A DNA stretch of 26,151 bases from a virus. Within the stretch, counting starts at the first letter, position 1. Each line of letters begins with the position of its first letter. The position numbers and the translations under genes are program-made. The stretch lies in IMG/VR virus record IMGVR_UViG_3300027917_000159, positions 1-26,151 of that record; one strand, written 5' to 3'. The notes below the pieces were generated by a model. That model made no database searches. It was not told the DNA's origin and was given only the letters and a program-made list of their open reading frames with translations. This document shows positions 8,383 through 17,631 of this stretch, one piece after another.

Positions 8383-8418
8383 AAAAAAAAAAGGACTTAG
8401 GGAATAAACCCCAAGTCC
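8383..8418 (-). terminator. Strong leftward intrinsic terminator
   Basis: GGACTT-a-GGG (8393-8402) pairs with CCC-c-AAGTCC (8409-8418) around AATAAA. On the minus strand the stem is followed by ten T residues (8392-8383). It ends the leftward accessory operon and also lies directly downstream of the promoter at 8428-8456. Confidence 0.85.
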
Positions 8419-8421
8419 CAT
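8383..8421 (-). ncRNA. Candidate ~39-nt promoter-terminator RNA
   Basis: Start predicted about seven bases after the -10 element at 8428-8433, end in the T run at 8383. The RNA would be little more than the terminator hairpin. It may be a small RNA, an attenuated leader that needs anti-termination to reach the DUF1937 operon, or a chance overlap of two operon-boundary signals. See the parallel unit at 15044-15134. Confidence 0.35.
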
Positions 8422-8427
8422 ATACTA

Positions 8428-8456
8428 AATATAACCACTGTTTAGCTATTTGTCAA
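8428..8456 (-). promoter_or_regulatory. Sigma-70 promoter, leftward
   Basis: On the minus strand TTGACA (8451-8456), a 17-bp spacer and TATATT (8428-8433). The -35 is perfect and the -10 has one mismatch. The -35 flank reads CCCTTGACAAA, the same as at 15129-15134. It lies between the stop at 8476 and the terminator at 8383-8418. Confidence 0.65.
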
Positions 8457-8475: not shown

Positions 8476-8700
8476 TTACCCTTCCTCTTGTAAATTATAT
8501 TTTGTAAAATTAAAATAAAATCTCGGCATATCTGAAAATTGTAGACAACCTCTTACATTATCTCTTTTTCTGGTAACCGTAATAAAAGGTGCCCAAAAGC
8601 TGTGAACTTCAAATGCCAAAGTTAATTCCTCTCTATTAAATACATCATCTTCACCATAGAGATCCACTAATTCTTGTCTAAATTTAATTTCATCATCCAT
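8476..8700 (-). CDS. Small hypothetical protein, paralogue of the next gene
   Basis: A 74-residue acidic protein. RQELVDLYGEDDVF, the block AFEVH-F-APFI-VTRK-DN and MPRFYF recur almost unchanged in the gene at 8720-8932, so the two arose by tandem duplication. Shine-Dalgarno AAGGGGAA precedes the ATG. The C-terminal tail differs (TKYNLQEEG). It is the last gene before the terminator. The conserved core suggests one small alpha/beta domain; function unknown. Confidence 0.75.
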   Translation of the reverse strand: MDDEIKFRQELVDLYGEDDVFNREELTLAFEVHSFWAPFITVTRKRDNVRGCLQFSDMPRFYFNFTKYNLQEEG

Positions 8701-8719
8701 TTTCTTATTCCCCTTTCTT

Positions 8720-8932
8720 TTATTTTCGTTCTGGTAAAAATCTAAAATAAAATCTCGGCATATGCAAAAATTCCAGAGTACCTCCTACATTATCACTTTT
8801 TCTGGTAACCACAATAAAAGGTGCCATGAAACCATGAACTTCAAATGCTGAAGTTAATTCACTGGTATCAAATACGTCATCTTCACCATAGAGATCCACT
8901 AATTCTTGTCTAACTTTAGTTTTATCATTCAT
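8720..8932 (-). CDS. Small hypothetical protein, paralogue of the previous gene
   Basis: A 70-residue protein homologous along its length to the gene at 8476-8700; most differences lie in the middle (DTSELTS) and at the C-terminus (LPERK). AAAAGGAG sits before the ATG, and its 20-base leader is almost the same as that of the gene at 8987-9211. No known domain recognised. Confidence 0.75.
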   Translation of the reverse strand: MNDKTKVRQELVDLYGEDDVFDTSELTSAFEVHGFMAPFIVVTRKSDNVGGTLEFLHMPRFYFRFLPERK

Positions 8933-10195: not shown

Positions 10196-10401
10196 GGCTT
10201 ATCTCCTTTCATAAATATAGCTGCCCCAAAATAATTGTCACCGCAAAAATTATCTTCACAAATAGTCACTTCTTTATCTTCACAAAATGTCTTAGCATGT
10301 TCAAAAGCGCAATTAGTAGCATACTCATGTTCAATAAAACAGCCTATCTTTTTAATTTTAATACCTTTTATAAAATCGACTTCCCATACTTCATAAAACA
10401 T
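10192..10401 (-). CDS. Small cysteine-containing hypothetical protein
   Basis: A 69-residue acidic protein with AAAAGGAGGG before the ATG. It has five cysteines (GCFIEH, TNCAFEH, TFCED, TICED, NFCGD), not in a standard finger spacing. Its stop overlaps the GTG of the next gene. Not recognised. Confidence 0.65.
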   Translation of the reverse strand: MFYEVWEVDFIKGIKIKKIGCFIEHEYATNCAFEHAKTFCEDKEVTICEDNFCGDNYFGAAIFMKGDKP

Positions 10402-11582: not shown

Positions 11583-11619
11583 TTTTTAATCCCCTTTCTT
11601 AATTTTTAAGTCTCGTCAG

Positions 11620-11652
11620 TTAAGGTTTATACCTTAAGACCGCCGCGGCGGT
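11620..11652. other. Hairpin plus GC-rich 14-bp palindrome
   Basis: TTAAGGT (11620-11626) pairs with ACCTTAA (11631-11637) around TTAT. Directly beside it is the perfect palindrome ACCGCCGCGGCGGT (11639-11652), very GC-rich for this AT-rich genome. Together with the stem-loop at 11665-11723 it fills a 130-base non-coding gap. The palindrome suits a dimeric DNA-binding protein or an RNA kissing stem. Confidence 0.6.
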
Positions 11653-11664
11653 TTCGACTTTTAT

Positions 11665-11723
11665 GAGGACCCCTAGACCCTTTATTTAAAAAGATCGTTC
11701 AACCTCAAGGGTCTAGGGGCCTC
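11665..11723 (-). other. Intergenic stem-loop, shared family (copy 2)
   Basis: CCCCTAGACCCTT (11670-11682) is perfectly complementary to 11707-11719, and GAGG/CCTC extend the stem with one bulged base. The 24-nt loop carries AGGTTGAACGATCT on the minus strand, matching the element at 9909-9951. No T run follows, so it is not a standard terminator. A 17-bp stem of this kind is strong enough to be an RNase III site. Confidence 0.65.
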
Positions 11724-11730
11724 TGTTTTG

Positions 11731-11871
11731 TCATTTAGTTTCTATTATTTGTAAAGGTTTAAAATTCGAACAATACATAACGGGTACTTTACAGTCATCC
11801 GATAATTTACAAGACGCGGGACAATCCCTGATACATTGTCCACAAAGACATATTATACAACGGTTATCCAT
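11731..11871 (-). CDS. Cysteine-rich microprotein (8 Cys in 46 aa)
   Basis: A 46-codon frame with AGAGG before the ATG. Cysteines lie at residues 5, 8, 10, 13, 17, 21, 27 and 34; the run C-x2-C-x3-C-P (10-17) matches the end of a ferredoxin-type 4Fe-4S motif, and C5-x2-C8 precedes it. It may bind an Fe-S cluster or zinc. It overlaps the upstream membrane-protein gene by 8 bases. Not recognised. Confidence 0.62.
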   Translation of the reverse strand: MDNRCIICLCGQCIRDCPASCKLSDDCKVPVMYCSNFKPLQIIETK

Positions 11872-12888: not shown

Positions 12889-13158
12889 TCATGATCTATC
12901 CTCTTTCTTTTGTCTTTCAAAATCTGCATCAAAATCCTCTTTTATATGCCACAAAAGGTTGTGTATCTCATTTGTTAAACTTACAAATTTTTCCGCAAAA
13001 TTAGGGTTATCAATTGATAATCGGTCCCTTAAACATTGTAATTTTTTTATCATAACCTTAATTGTAATATCCTTTTGCAAAAGCCCTCTGTATTTTGCAT
13101 CTAATAAAATACTTTCTAACGCTGTCATTAATTCTCCATTAGTAATAATTTGATCCAC
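12889..13158 (-). CDS. Hypothetical helical protein (GTG start)
   Basis: An 89-residue, largely helical protein (LMTALESILLDAKYRGLL...). The start is GTG at 13158 with AAAGGAG six bases upstream. It ends with a charged tail (FDADFERQKKEDRS). It is the first gene of the leftward accessory operon, just downstream of the structured leader. TTCCCA-17-TATAAT (13173-13201, minus) could also act as a promoter, but its start would clip the ribosome site. Confidence 0.68.
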   Translation of the reverse strand: MDQIITNGELMTALESILLDAKYRGLLQKDITIKVMIKKLQCLRDRLSIDNPNFAEKFVSLTNEIHNLLWHIKEDFDADFERQKKEDRS

Positions 13159-13189
13159 TGCTATCTCCTTTCATTATAATTAATGTTTC

Positions 13190-13586
13190 ATTCCCTGGGA
13201 AGCACAAATAGTTGATCTAGGATCGGGCGGTATCGTGTCCGCAAGGATGATGAGTCCTTTCAGGCATTCATAACAGCTTATGACTAAGCGTCCTCAGCTT
13301 TCACTGTCAAGAATCCTGCCTATCCTCTATTTATACTCCCCAGGCAATAAAACACATTGCCCTAAAAATTGTTTAGAAGGTCAAATTCTCCCCCGGCATC
13401 CCGGTCTGATCAAATTTGGTCTATCAGCAAAACCCTGGCTCTTACAGCGCCCAGTCTCTTTCAATCCTTAAGGTTTTGAGACCTGTCTCAGTCTCCGGCG
13501 GTCCTTCCGCTTCCCTAATTTGTGTATCCCTTTGTTGGTGACAGGGACTTTGATTTTTGGATTTATCTCCTTTCTATTCAATTGTT
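13190..13586 (-). ncRNA. Candidate structured RNA or long leader (~400 nt)
   Basis: No convincing reading frame is seen, but the segment is visibly richer in G and C than its flanks and packed with local stems: GCGG/CCGC (13227-13242), AAGGA/TCCTT (13243-13259), GCTTA/TAAGC (13276-13289), GGCAAT/ATTGCC (13343-13361), CTGAT/ATCAG (13406-13427), GAGAC/GTCTC (13478-13495), GCGG/CCGC (13498-13510) and TCCC-TGT/ACA-GGGA (13527-13547). A consensus promoter at 13593-13621 reads into it. The 3' end is a guess; no terminator is seen, so it may be the 5' leader of the operon starting at 13158. It does not show landmarks I know from RNase P RNA, tmRNA, SRP RNA or group I/II introns. Confidence 0.4.
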
Positions 13587-13592
13587 ATACAC

Positions 13593-13621
13593 ATTATAAT
13601 TACTATTTCTAGCGGTGTCAA
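13593..13621 (-). promoter_or_regulatory. Consensus sigma-70 promoter, leftward
   Basis: Minus strand: TTGACA (13616-13621), a 17-bp spacer, TATAAT (13593-13598). Both boxes and the spacer are exact consensus. The start should lie near 13586. It is the strongest promoter visible in the window and must work with the host enzyme alone, so early expression is likely. Confidence 0.8.
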
Positions 13622-13818
13622 GAAAAAAAAGTAAATAAAATAAAATAAATTTACATATCCTGTAATATTAATACCTTACTATCTACCTTTATTATTTTGG
13701 CATACCTCTTGCAGCAACCTCAAATTCACAAAAATTTACATACCGACACTTGACAAGAAAAATGTTCACCTATTGACATTACCAATATAATGATTAACTT
13801 CTTAGGAAAAGAAAGAAA
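13622..13818. other. AT-rich divergent gap with repeats and a rightward promoter candidate
   Basis: About 200 bases without a gene. An 11-mer AAATTTACATA recurs at 13647-13657 and 13732-13742. TTGACA occurs at 13750-13755 and 13773-13778, and a perfect TATAAT at 13786-13791, but these are not at a proper spacing from each other; TGTTCA (13763-13768) is the best -35 at 17 bp. A binding region for a regulator, or an origin, could lie here. Confidence 0.4.
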
Positions 13819-13917
13819 ATGTATGGCAGTCTTTCAATACTTCAAGAGCGTTTTCGAAGTTTACAAAAAAATGGTGTTCGGTGCGATCGAACAGTAAGTG
13901 AAAGAATGAAATTATAA
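13819..13917 (+). CDS. Possible 32-residue peptide
   Basis: A short frame starting MYGSLSILQERFRSLQKNG, with AGGA about 11 bases upstream and the TATAAT of 13786-13791 just before it. It looks like an amphipathic basic peptide, but at this length it may be chance. It is the only plausible frame in the left part of the divergent region. Confidence 0.25.
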   Translation: MYGSLSILQERFRSLQKNGVRCDRTVSERMKL

Positions 13918-14634
13918 GGAAGTATTGTGGTGTGTGGGGGTTTAAGGGTGAGATTTCCCTTCACTCACACAGATTTATTCACCCATTCTATACTGATCTA
14001 ACCTAATTAAACGAAACCTGACATACTTAAGTTAAGCTCGTGCACCCAGGCGAAACTTGTCAAGTGCTAACTGTAAACTATCACAACGTGGTACTGCATC
14101 AAAAAAGATACACATTGTAACCTGTATGAAAAAAGACACGGTGGTCAAATATGACCACACCACATTGTGGTACAAAGAGAACACCCATGATATTTCAAGG
14201 GCAAGCAATCTTTTTTTACGTCTCCCAGGGAACATTTAGGGGGCTGGTCCCCGATCCCGGTGACGGCTAATAGGGAGTCATACTTTCATCTATACTTTTT
14301 GGTAAAAACACCAAATCTATACCATTCCAATAGGAATACGACCATATTCAGGGACCCAAATACACATATATTATTTTTGAAATTTCATCAGAAAGAATAG
14401 GATAAACTATGCCAGATATAGTGACAGTGAACTTTTTCATCATTTGTGCCGAATATAAGAGTGTACGGTCTCTTTTCTTCTCTTTTCCTAGGGGGAGTCT
14501 GAAATCTCATTCAGCTCCCCTAAACTTTTCAAGAGAAAAGGGGGGTTTGGGGGGTTATAGTTACTTATCCTATCCGTTCGGTTTGAGTGTTCGCTTCGCT
14601 CCACCCAAACCTCACAAAAAAAAGGATTATAATA
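13918..14634. other. Structured non-coding region before the packaging genes
   Basis: Over 700 bases with no supported gene. Stems include GTGTG...CACAC with inner AAGGG/CCCTT (13932-13970), GTGGTCA/TGACCAC (14141-14158), ACCACA-T-TGTGGT (14159-14171), GGGG/CCCC (14239-14252), TCCC/GGGA (14255-14276), TTTGGT/ACCAAA (14298-14315), ATTCC/GGAAT (14324-14337), a 12-bp stem with two bulges (14489-14522) and CTTTTC/GAAAAG (14525-14540). It may be a second structured RNA, a long leader for the late genes, or a regulatory/origin region. Confidence 0.45.
14580..14620 (+). promoter_or_regulatory. Late-leader hairpin motif, copy 1
   Basis: GGTTTG-a-GTG (14580-14589) pairs with CAC-c-CAAACC (14602-14611), then CTCACAAAAAA. 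The small terminase start follows after a short gap. The same order, TTCGG(G)TTT, hairpin, AAACC(C)TCACAAAAAA, recurs at 15366-15396 before another gene. A translational control element is likely. Confidence 0.45.
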
Positions 14635-15045
14635 ATGACCAAAGAAGATAAGCAAAAGTTATTTTTAATAGCGTTACAAGCTTGTAATGGCAACATTACA
14701 AAAACTTGTGAGGCTTGTGCTATGTCTAGACAAAGTTATTACAAATGGATGAATGCAGAAGACCAAACATTTGCAGAGAAAATTCTAGAAATTCAAACAG
14801 ATGCTATTGAACGAAGGATTGATTTGGCTGAGTCCAAGATTGATAAACTGGTAGAAATGGGAAGTGGCCCGGATATTCGATTCATTCTTAAAACTTTGGG
14901 CGCTAATCGTGGATATGGGAATAGGCAAGAGGTCACAGTACGACCTGGAGAAGGCTTTGCGAATATGTTATGGCCGGAAGAAACTCCTTCTCTGGAAGAT
15001 TGGGAAACGAAACGGGATCTTGAATTAATAGATGATGAAGATTAA
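14635..15045 (+). CDS. Terminase small subunit
   Basis: A 136-residue DNA-recognition subunit of the packaging motor. An N-terminal helix-turn-helix spans about residues 9-40 (LQACNGNITKTCEACAMSRQSYYKWM), followed by a helical stretch with AIERRIDLAESKIDKLVE and the family-like ending FILKTLGANRGYG near residue 100. The frame opens at 14587, but the first ATG with a ribosome site (AAAGGATT) is at 14635. The large subunit lies 1 kb downstream, with three small genes between. HTH-type phage small terminases of this length are common. Confidence 0.85.
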   Translation: MTKEDKQKLFLIALQACNGNITKTCEACAMSRQSYYKWMNAEDQTFAEKILEIQTDAIERRIDLAESKIDKLVEMGSGPDIRFILKTLGANRGYGNRQEVTVRPGEGFANMLWPEETPSLEDWETKRDLELIDDED

Positions 15046-15719: not shown

Positions 15720-16036
15720 ATATAAATTATTCTTTTGCATTGGGATTTAGGTCCGGAATGGATAATAGCGGTTGTAATATAACTGTATTTACTGAAGATG
15801 ATGTAACAGTTGTTCAAGCCACGGCAGAAAAAATGACTGATTTTATGTTATTTTTAGACACAATTATTGGGCAAATGCAAGTAATTAAAGATCGCACACA
15901 ACCAATGCCAGAATGTCCGAATTGTACGACAGTATTAAAATCGGAAGGTAGATGGTTAATTTGTAACAAATGCGATTGGAAAAATCTTATACAACCTGGT
16001 AATGAGCAGAGAGAATGTTTTCAAAAAAAAGAGTAA
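15716..16036 (+). CDS. Hypothetical protein with C-terminal zinc ribbon
   Basis: A 106-residue protein. The N-terminal part is beta-rich then helical (VVQATAEKMTDFMLFLDTII). The C-terminal part has CPNC near residue 67 and CNKC about 16 residues later, with WLICNKCDW as in zinc ribbons. It overlaps the large terminase start by 22 bases, suggesting coupled expression. Function unknown, perhaps DNA binding. Confidence 0.7.
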   Translation: MNINYSFALGFRSGMDNSGCNITVFTEDDVTVVQATAEKMTDFMLFLDTIIGQMQVIKDRTQPMPECPNCTTVLKSEGRWLICNKCDWKNLIQPGNEQRECFQKKE

Positions 16037-17631
16037 AAACCGTTCCAGTTTACTGGCAACCCCAAAAAGGTCCGCAAACAGCCGCTGCATTATGTCCGGC
16101 AGACGAAGTTTTCTTCGGAGGGACCAGGGGTGGCGGTAAATCTGACTGTGCAATAGGTCGACAAATTCATGGTGCAGCCAAATACGGTAGAGATTGGAAT
16201 GGCATTATGATTCGTCGAAAATATAAAGATCTTTCCGAACTAAGGCGTAGATTTGCTCAGATTATTACCCAAGGTATGCCAGCAAAGTTAAGTGGTGGAG
16301 AGAATCAAACGGGTTATGTACGTTTTGATAATGGCGCAAAAATTACTTTGGCCGCTGTGCAGCATCTAGATCAAGCAGATGATTGGATAGGACATCAGTT
16401 TACGGAAATTACGGTTGATGAGGCTCCTAATATCCCTTTTATTTCGCTTCTATTGGACAAATTGAAGGGGTCTTTACGATCTCCTGCGGGAGTGCCGTGT
16501 CACGTTTTTATGACAGGCAACCCTGGAGGTCCTGGAGCATCATCAGTTAAACAAATGTTTATAGATCCGGACCCTAATGGAACTGGAAAAATTATATATG
16601 ACGAAGACGAAGATTCAACTAGGGTATTTATTAGATCTACTTTAGATGATAACAAAATTTTATGTGAAAACGACCCTAAATATGTAAAACGATTACGTTC
16701 TATTAGAGACGAAAATTTAAGATCAGCTTGGTTAGAGGGTAGATGGGATGTATATATTGGACAAGCATTTGATTTTGATCCACTTTACCATGCTATTAAA
16801 CCTATATGGCCAATACCTGAGTACGCTCCAATTTACATGACCTTTGATTGGGGGTTCGGGGCTCCATTTTCTATAGGCTGGTGGTGGGTTGATGGAGATA
16901 ATAGGATTTATAGGTTTGCAGAATGGTACGGTTGTAAGAAAAATCTTCCAAATGTAGGTATTCGTTATACAGATTCTCAAATTGCAGCAGGGATTTATGA
17001 ACGTGAATGTAAAATGAAGATCCAAGATAGAGAGATTCTTCGTCTGTCAGGTAAAGATTGTTTCAATAAAAAGCCAGATTATATGGGAGGGGGTCAGGGC
17101 CCCTCGACAGCAGATGAATTTGAAGATTGGGCTAAAAAAGCTGATGTAGAAAAAGGCTACAAATTGATTTTGTATCCGGGAGATGTAAAGAGAGAATTAA
17201 AAATAAGACAGTTTAGAAATCGACTTTCTATTCCTATAGGTCCTGATAAAGTTCCTACTGGTAATATGCCAATGATGGTCGCATATAATACTTGTACAAA
17301 TTTTATTAGAACAATTCCTTCTTTATGTTTGGATGATTTAATAGGCGAAGATTTAGAAGATGGTCAGGAAGATCATATCTATGATGAAGCTTGTCATATT
17401 TGTATGGCAAGACCTCTTGGAACTGATATTCTGGAATACGAACAACGTATCAGGAAAATTGAGGTTCAGAAAAAACTTAAAACAATGGACCCTGATGCCA
17501 GAATAGCAGCACAAGAATATTCTATGGTATTGCACAGGTTGGCAGAAGAGCAAGAAGTGGAATATGATGATGATTTCTTAGTAGATCCGGATTTGACAGA
17601 AGATCATGCCGACGATACTTTTCTTTTTTAG
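16015..17631 (+). CDS. Terminase large subunit
   Basis: Packaging ATPase and nuclease of 538 residues. Walker A FGGTRGGGKS lies at residues 34-43, Walker B ITVDE ends at D135-E136, and a coupling-type motif (FMTGNPGGPG) follows. The nuclease domain starts with MTFDWGFG, whose D278 is the first catalytic acid of the RNase H-like fold; EDHIYDEACH near the end supplies D453 and D457. The length is normal. The gene begins inside the preceding zinc-ribbon gene, and the GAGAGAATGTTT context gives GAGAG just before the ATG. Packaging type (cos or pac) cannot be told from the sequence alone. Confidence 0.96.
   Translation: MFSKKRVKTVPVYWQPQKGPQTAAALCPADEVFFGGTRGGGKSDCAIGRQIHGAAKYGRDWNGIMIRRKYKDLSELRRRFAQIITQGMPAKLSGGENQTGYVRFDNGAKITLAAVQHLDQADDWIGHQFTEITVDEAPNIPFISLLLDKLKGSLRSPAGVPCHVFMTGNPGGPGASSVKQMFIDPDPNGTGKIIYDEDEDSTRVFIRSTLDDNKILCENDPKYVKRLRSIRDENLRSAWLEGRWDVYIGQAFDFDPLYHAIKPIWPIPEYAPIYMTFDWGFGAPFSIGWWWVDGDNRIYRFAEWYGCKKNLPNVGIRYTDSQIAAGIYERECKMKIQDREILRLSGKDCFNKKPDYMGGGQGPSTADEFEDWAKKADVEKGYKLILYPGDVKRELKIRQFRNRLSIPIGPDKVPTGNMPMMVAYNTCTNFIRTIPSLCLDDLIGEDLEDGQEDHIYDEACHICMARPLGTDILEYEQRIRKIEVQKKLKTMDPDARIAAQEYSMVLHRLAEEQEVEYDDDFLVDPDLTEDHADDTFLF

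Follow-up and report, generated by a model that had tools for sequence, protein, structure and literature searches.

Few large structured RNAs are known from phages, and the function of most of them, GOLLD and ROOL included, is unknown. Nearly all were found by comparative genomics, which by design misses RNAs that exist as a single example. STAB-SD and other 5' stabilisers occur in the Gram-positive mRNA leaders of cry3A, aprE and gsiB; we know of no large branched RNA that follows the stabiliser in these leaders. GOLLD and ROOL are distinct classes, often found near tRNA islands in phages and prophages (PMC12286853). The put RNAs of HK022 are about 70 nt long and consist of two stem-loops; putL lies directly behind an early promoter (PMC9378689).

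Here we analyse a 26,151-bp stretch of viral DNA (the window) in which a preliminary description had pointed to a consensus promoter followed by some 400 nt of structured non-coding DNA, either a phage-encoded structured RNA or a very long leader. Folding models make it very probable that a structured RNA is present. We propose, at a probability of roughly one half, that it is a large structured 5' leader RNA of a leftward early operon and that it acts in cis. Of the two readings offered earlier, the very long leader fits better than a free-standing RNA because transcription would reach the first gene without meeting a terminator; folding statistics, strand asymmetry, the lack of coding signal and the adjoining promoter all favour the structured RNA common to both.

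The genes of the window form two divergent blocks. The leftward block runs from 13158 down to 2833; the rightward block is structural, with the terminase (16015-17631), the portal and the major head protein. The gap between them (13159-14634) is the largest in the window, so that the genome was fairly called compact elsewhere. The element sits at the head of the leftward block and fills less than a third of the gap. Its G+C content is about 43.5%, against about 32% in the surroundings. The promoter is exactly as first reported on the minus strand. No other site in the window matches at 12/12, and about 0.02 such matches would be expected after dinucleotide shuffling. From its position, transcription is expected to start near 13586 on the minus strand. 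Leftward of it come about 425 nt without coding signal, and then the operon. Coordinates are collected in Table 1.

Table 1. Features of the proposed leader and its operon, in window coordinates
Feature	Position	Strand	Remarks
Sigma-70 type consensus promoter, TTGACA-17-TATAAT	13593..13621	minus	12/12 match; 0.02 expected per shuffled window
GAAAGGAGATA, Shine-Dalgarno-like, candidate 5' stabiliser (STAB-SD-like)	13564..13574	minus	~12 nt from expected 5' end; putative role
5' hairpins (UCCCU/AGGGA, GCGG/CCGC, GAGACU/GGUCUC)	13478..13547	minus	predicted fold
5' domain, multi-branched, 12-bp closing helix	13360..13473	minus	predicted fold; z -2.4 alone
3' domain, 28-bp closing helix (10 + 18 bp around a 1x1 interruption), branched three-arm head	13183..13355	minus	predicted fold; z -9.0
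GAAAGGAGATA repeated from 13574, Shine-Dalgarno of first gene	13162..13172	minus	unpaired in predicted fold
First gene of leftward operon, GTG start, 89 aa	12889..13158	minus	gene annotation; no family match
11/12 promoter, TTGACA-17-TATATT	8456..8428	minus	expected start right at or just before the terminator hairpin
Strong intrinsic terminator, 11 bp then T10, -18.9 kcal/mol	8392..8419	minus (operon sense)	between genes 8476 and 8282

Does the segment encode a protein? A codon-usage score was trained on the clear genes of the window, which themselves score 0.125 to 0.44 bit per codon. Minus-strand open reading frames of at least 18 aa within the segment score between -0.46 and +0.06, in agreement with the earlier statement that it holds no credible frame. 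The longest of these (37 aa, from a TTG at 13581) has no Shine-Dalgarno sequence and scores -0.12; a 63-aa frame on the plus strand, at -0.21, likewise falls below the range of the window's genes.

The folding of the leftward RNA is far stronger than its composition predicts. RNA 13586..13160 has a minimum free energy (MFE) of -140.3 kcal/mol, compared with -104.0 (sd 6.2) for its dinucleotide shuffles (z -5.9), and none of 100 shuffles was as stable. For the element, z is -5.1 on the minus strand and -1.8 on the plus strand. Among 158 windows of 425 nt taken from the whole genome on both strands, the element has the highest folding excess (-35.3 kcal/mol; mean -3.2, sd 7.2). With shorter windows (200 nt, 20 shuffles) it does not lead the genome, since its long-range helices are cut at that size; tests on the whole element and at domain size took their place.

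In the MFE structure a series of 5' hairpins is followed by a 5' domain and a 3' domain. No shuffle out of 200 matched the 3' domain folded on its own, whose z of -9.0 is somewhat flattered because the domain ends were chosen from the fold itself; the whole-element z is less subject to that bias. The complementary plus strand of this domain reaches only -3.4. A simple inverted repeat in the DNA should give similar stability whichever strand is read, and the asymmetry is therefore an argument that selection has acted on the leftward RNA. In the model, the closing helices of both domains are retained up to 60 C, and the predicted fold is unchanged when about 80 nt of the first gene are added.

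About six of the eight stems listed in the preliminary description recur in the MFE structure: both GCGG/CCGC pairs, AAGGA/TCCTT, CTGAT/ATCAG, GAGAC/GTCTC and part of TCCC-TGT/ACA-GGGA. GCTTA/TAAGC and GGCAAT/ATTGCC are absent because stronger helices conflict with them. The features that dominate the structure, the 12-bp helix of the 5' domain and the 28-bp helix of the 3' domain, were not on that list. The earlier observation is confirmed, and the case for it is stronger than first described. The GGCAAU/AUUGCC hairpin (13361-13343, minus) would exclude part of both of these helices, a possible co-transcriptional switch. One arm of the 3' domain (13259-13243, minus) has a 5-bp stem and a 7-nt loop, CUCAUCA, with the anticodon-arm geometry (U33, CAU) of methionine tRNA. 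tRNA models gave no match to this arm, and the likeness is probably a coincidence.

Two short sequences recur at the ends of the element. TAATTATAATG is present at both (13602 and 13182), as is GAAAGGAGATA (Table 1), which has a third copy at 10210 and so is not special to the element ends. The paired repeats could be the trace of an old duplication or insertion event. At the 3' end, about 25 nt separate the last helix from the GTG of the first gene. With no terminator between them and the second Shine-Dalgarno sequence unpaired, leader and first gene appear to form one continuous RNA. At the 5' end we looked behind GAAAGGAGATA at 13574 for an ATG, GTG or TTG at start distance and found none. 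Such a stretch points to a role in stabilising the mRNA, and this one could be a 5' stabiliser of the STAB-SD kind. Like STAB-SD leaders, the element has a Shine-Dalgarno-like GAAAGGAG close to its 5' end that no start codon follows.

Is this RNA a member of a described class? A search of the whole window against Rfam at gathering scores gave no match. An Rfam/Infernal scan, the check proposed in the preliminary description, found no family beyond noise at E up to 10: positions 13100-13700 gave eight noise-level matches, none of them GOLLD, ROOL or OLE. The best intron or ribozyme match was a group II fragment at 13.5 bits (gathering score 36; E 3.4), itself at noise level, and models of the group I and group II catalytic cores run with permissive filters found nothing above noise. 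Neither ARAGORN nor Rfam matched the element as a tRNA or tmRNA. ARAGORN found no tRNA genes in the window; as a sign against GOLLD or ROOL this counts for little in a record of only 26 kb. The empty Rfam result is evidence against any recognisable GOLLD, ROOL or OLE RNA, and against an intron, tRNA or riboswitch of a recognisable kind.

The element resembles GOLLD and ROOL in being a large, elaborate phage RNA without protein-coding capacity. It differs from them in being contiguous with an operon, in matching no Rfam model and in the absence of tRNA genes from the window. Thus the precedent of GOLLD and ROOL invoked earlier is left without support, all the more as the element lies at the 5' end of an operon. 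With HK022 putL and putR it has in common a structured RNA directly behind a presumed early promoter, the earliness of the operon being judged from gene content. At about 400 nt and with two multi-branched domains, as against about 70 nt and two stem-loops, it is by size and fold not a put RNA.

Relatives of the element were sought widely. GenBank phages and plasmids contained no DNA homologue (blastn, 11-base words), and the whole records of 39 viruses related through TerL gave only chance matches of 12-25 nt. Over about 4 Mb of fetched loci, nhmmer and word-7 blastn found no homologue. Single-sequence covariance models of both domains, a weak probe for distant relatives, matched only the window itself among 79 sources. 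A covariance model and DNA search of 391 genomes from the class of one distant relative's host gave no real match; three short DNA matches among them were rechecked for the 3' domain and proved not real. Loop patterns with free stems gave 3 to more than 100 matches each in IMG/VR, none retaining all stems, and were taken as chance. No IMG/VR relatives were found of the element-adjacent proteins or of the DNA polymerase. In one near relative (L004, TerL 61% identical) the divergent layout is kept, with homologues of the early genes on the left; the corresponding gap measures 443 bp and is not comparably structured (z -1.3). A comparably structured leader was not found at this place in either near relative (L003 and L004, TerL 61%), which counts against the leader reading. 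With no homologue found, the element is either rare or fast-evolving.

The remainder of the divergent gap has features of its own. About 1 kb of further non-coding DNA (13620-14640) lies between the blocks. It contains a turn in GC skew and, at 14080-14180, inverted repeats centred around GGTCAAATATGACC and CCACATTGTGGTAC; this is a possible origin or operator region. On the plus strand, the leader of the rightward block contains G-rich hairpins at 14480-14630, GGGGGAGTC...CTCCCC and GGGGGGTTTGGGGGG...CCACCCAAACC. This rightward leader (14180-14640) has a moderate folding excess (z -2.6) and is unrelated to the leftward RNA: it was tried as a paralogue of the element on the strength of the common TGACAGTGAA and TCCCAGGGAA, and the similarity was no better than chance.

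A folding excess alone is no proof of function, and other accounts of the segment must be weighed against a leader acting in cis. It might instead be a trans-acting non-coding RNA with a GOLLD-, ROOL- or phage sRNA-like function, released from the primary transcript of the operon, with RNase III cleavage of the 28-bp helix as one conceivable route, and accumulating separately. We consider this unlikely, though the main alternative. At 28 bp, the helix has the length needed of an RNase III substrate; the size of the RNA, its two multi-branched domains and its very stable 3' domain exceed what most leaders need; and the 5' Shine-Dalgarno-like stretch could stabilise a separate RNA. However, the RNA has neither a terminator nor a 3' end of its own, its last helix running to within about 25 nt of the first gene, and it matches no family in Rfam, whether GOLLD, ROOL, OLE or another. 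Quite improbable, in our judgement, is a stretch with no function at all, a degenerate insertion or piece of foreign DNA whose chance inverted repeat folds without use. No collection searched holds a homologue, and TAATTATAATG and GAAAGGAGATA stand at both ends, a pattern to be expected after duplication or insertion. Yet such a repeat would fold about equally on both strands, whereas the 3' domain has a z of -9.0 and a strong strand asymmetry; the stability comes from several separate helices rather than one repeat, and the position is directly behind a perfect promoter.

The direct repeat GAAAGGAGATA, bracketing the structured region at 13574 and 13172, would suit a ribozyme or self-splicing intron placed behind the promoter and ahead of the first gene, whose excision between the GAAAGGAGATA copies would join promoter, Shine-Dalgarno sequence and GTG. 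But GAAAGGAGATA is not confined to the bracketing sites, and no intron or ribozyme family in Rfam matches above noise; an intron here is hardly to be believed. A translated leader encoding an attenuator peptide is very unlikely too. The stretch at 13574 is a good Shine-Dalgarno sequence near the expected 5' end, but no start codon lies at the right distance from it, and the sole open frame there, of 37 aa with its negative codon score, begins upstream of it.

How might a cis-acting leader work? The leftward genes include those for a Sak4-like annealing protein, an RNA ligase and an ERCC4-domain nuclease with HhH motifs, and for this reason the block looks early or replication-type. Starting near 13586, the polymerase would first make about 400 nt of RNA comprising, in the computed fold, the 5' hairpins, the multi-branched 5' domain and the very stable 3' domain. 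Meeting no terminator at the end of the leader, it would go on into gene 13158 and a stretch of about 10 kb in which most genes are small. The leader RNA would most likely act in cis, on its own transcript or its own polymerase. In the leading version of this scheme it would cause put-style antitermination, as in HK022, at 8419..8392; beyond this site lie the genes for the Sak4-like protein, the RNA ligase and the ERCC4-type nuclease. Supposing action in cis, the polymerase would, as with put, pass terminators of the operon. What places antitermination at the top of the cis mechanisms is the strong intrinsic terminator that stands in the path of the operon. That evidence is circumstantial, and taken on its own antitermination is a doubtful proposition. 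A second candidate is that the Shine-Dalgarno-like 5' stretch and the stable fold together protect the long mRNA.

The terminator may simply end a first operon, with the 11/12 promoter at 8456 serving the genes beyond. That promoter, however, itself lies before the terminator. Between terminator and next gene we looked for promoter-like sites of at least 9/12 and found none, so the genes past 8419..8392 seem to need read-through. The promoter-terminator pair (8456-8382, minus) precedes gene 8282, and further downstream are operator-like AATTTAATTGC repeats (8340-8295). Elsewhere in the block, two similar tandem small genes (MDDEIKFRQELVDLYGEDDVF... and MNDKTKVRQELVDLYGEDDVF..., 8476-8932, minus) look like a recent duplication. 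Between small genes at 11590-11740 (minus) there are three successive hairpins, a long AGGCCCCTAGACCC...GGGTCTAGGGGTCC, then CCGCCGCGGCGG and TTAAGGTATAAACCTTAA, with high folding z on both strands.

A 3' domain with a z of -9 behind a perfect promoter makes this a strong single-copy candidate. Tentatively, it may represent a class of large phage RNA not described before, a leader of about 400 nt with two domains that controls the transcription or the stability of a 10-kb early operon. It has been seen so far in a single phage, and neither Rfam nor GenBank phages nor the viral records searched contain a relative. Because it stands at the head of an operon, it offers, in contrast to GOLLD and ROOL, hypotheses that can be tested directly, namely antitermination and mRNA protection.
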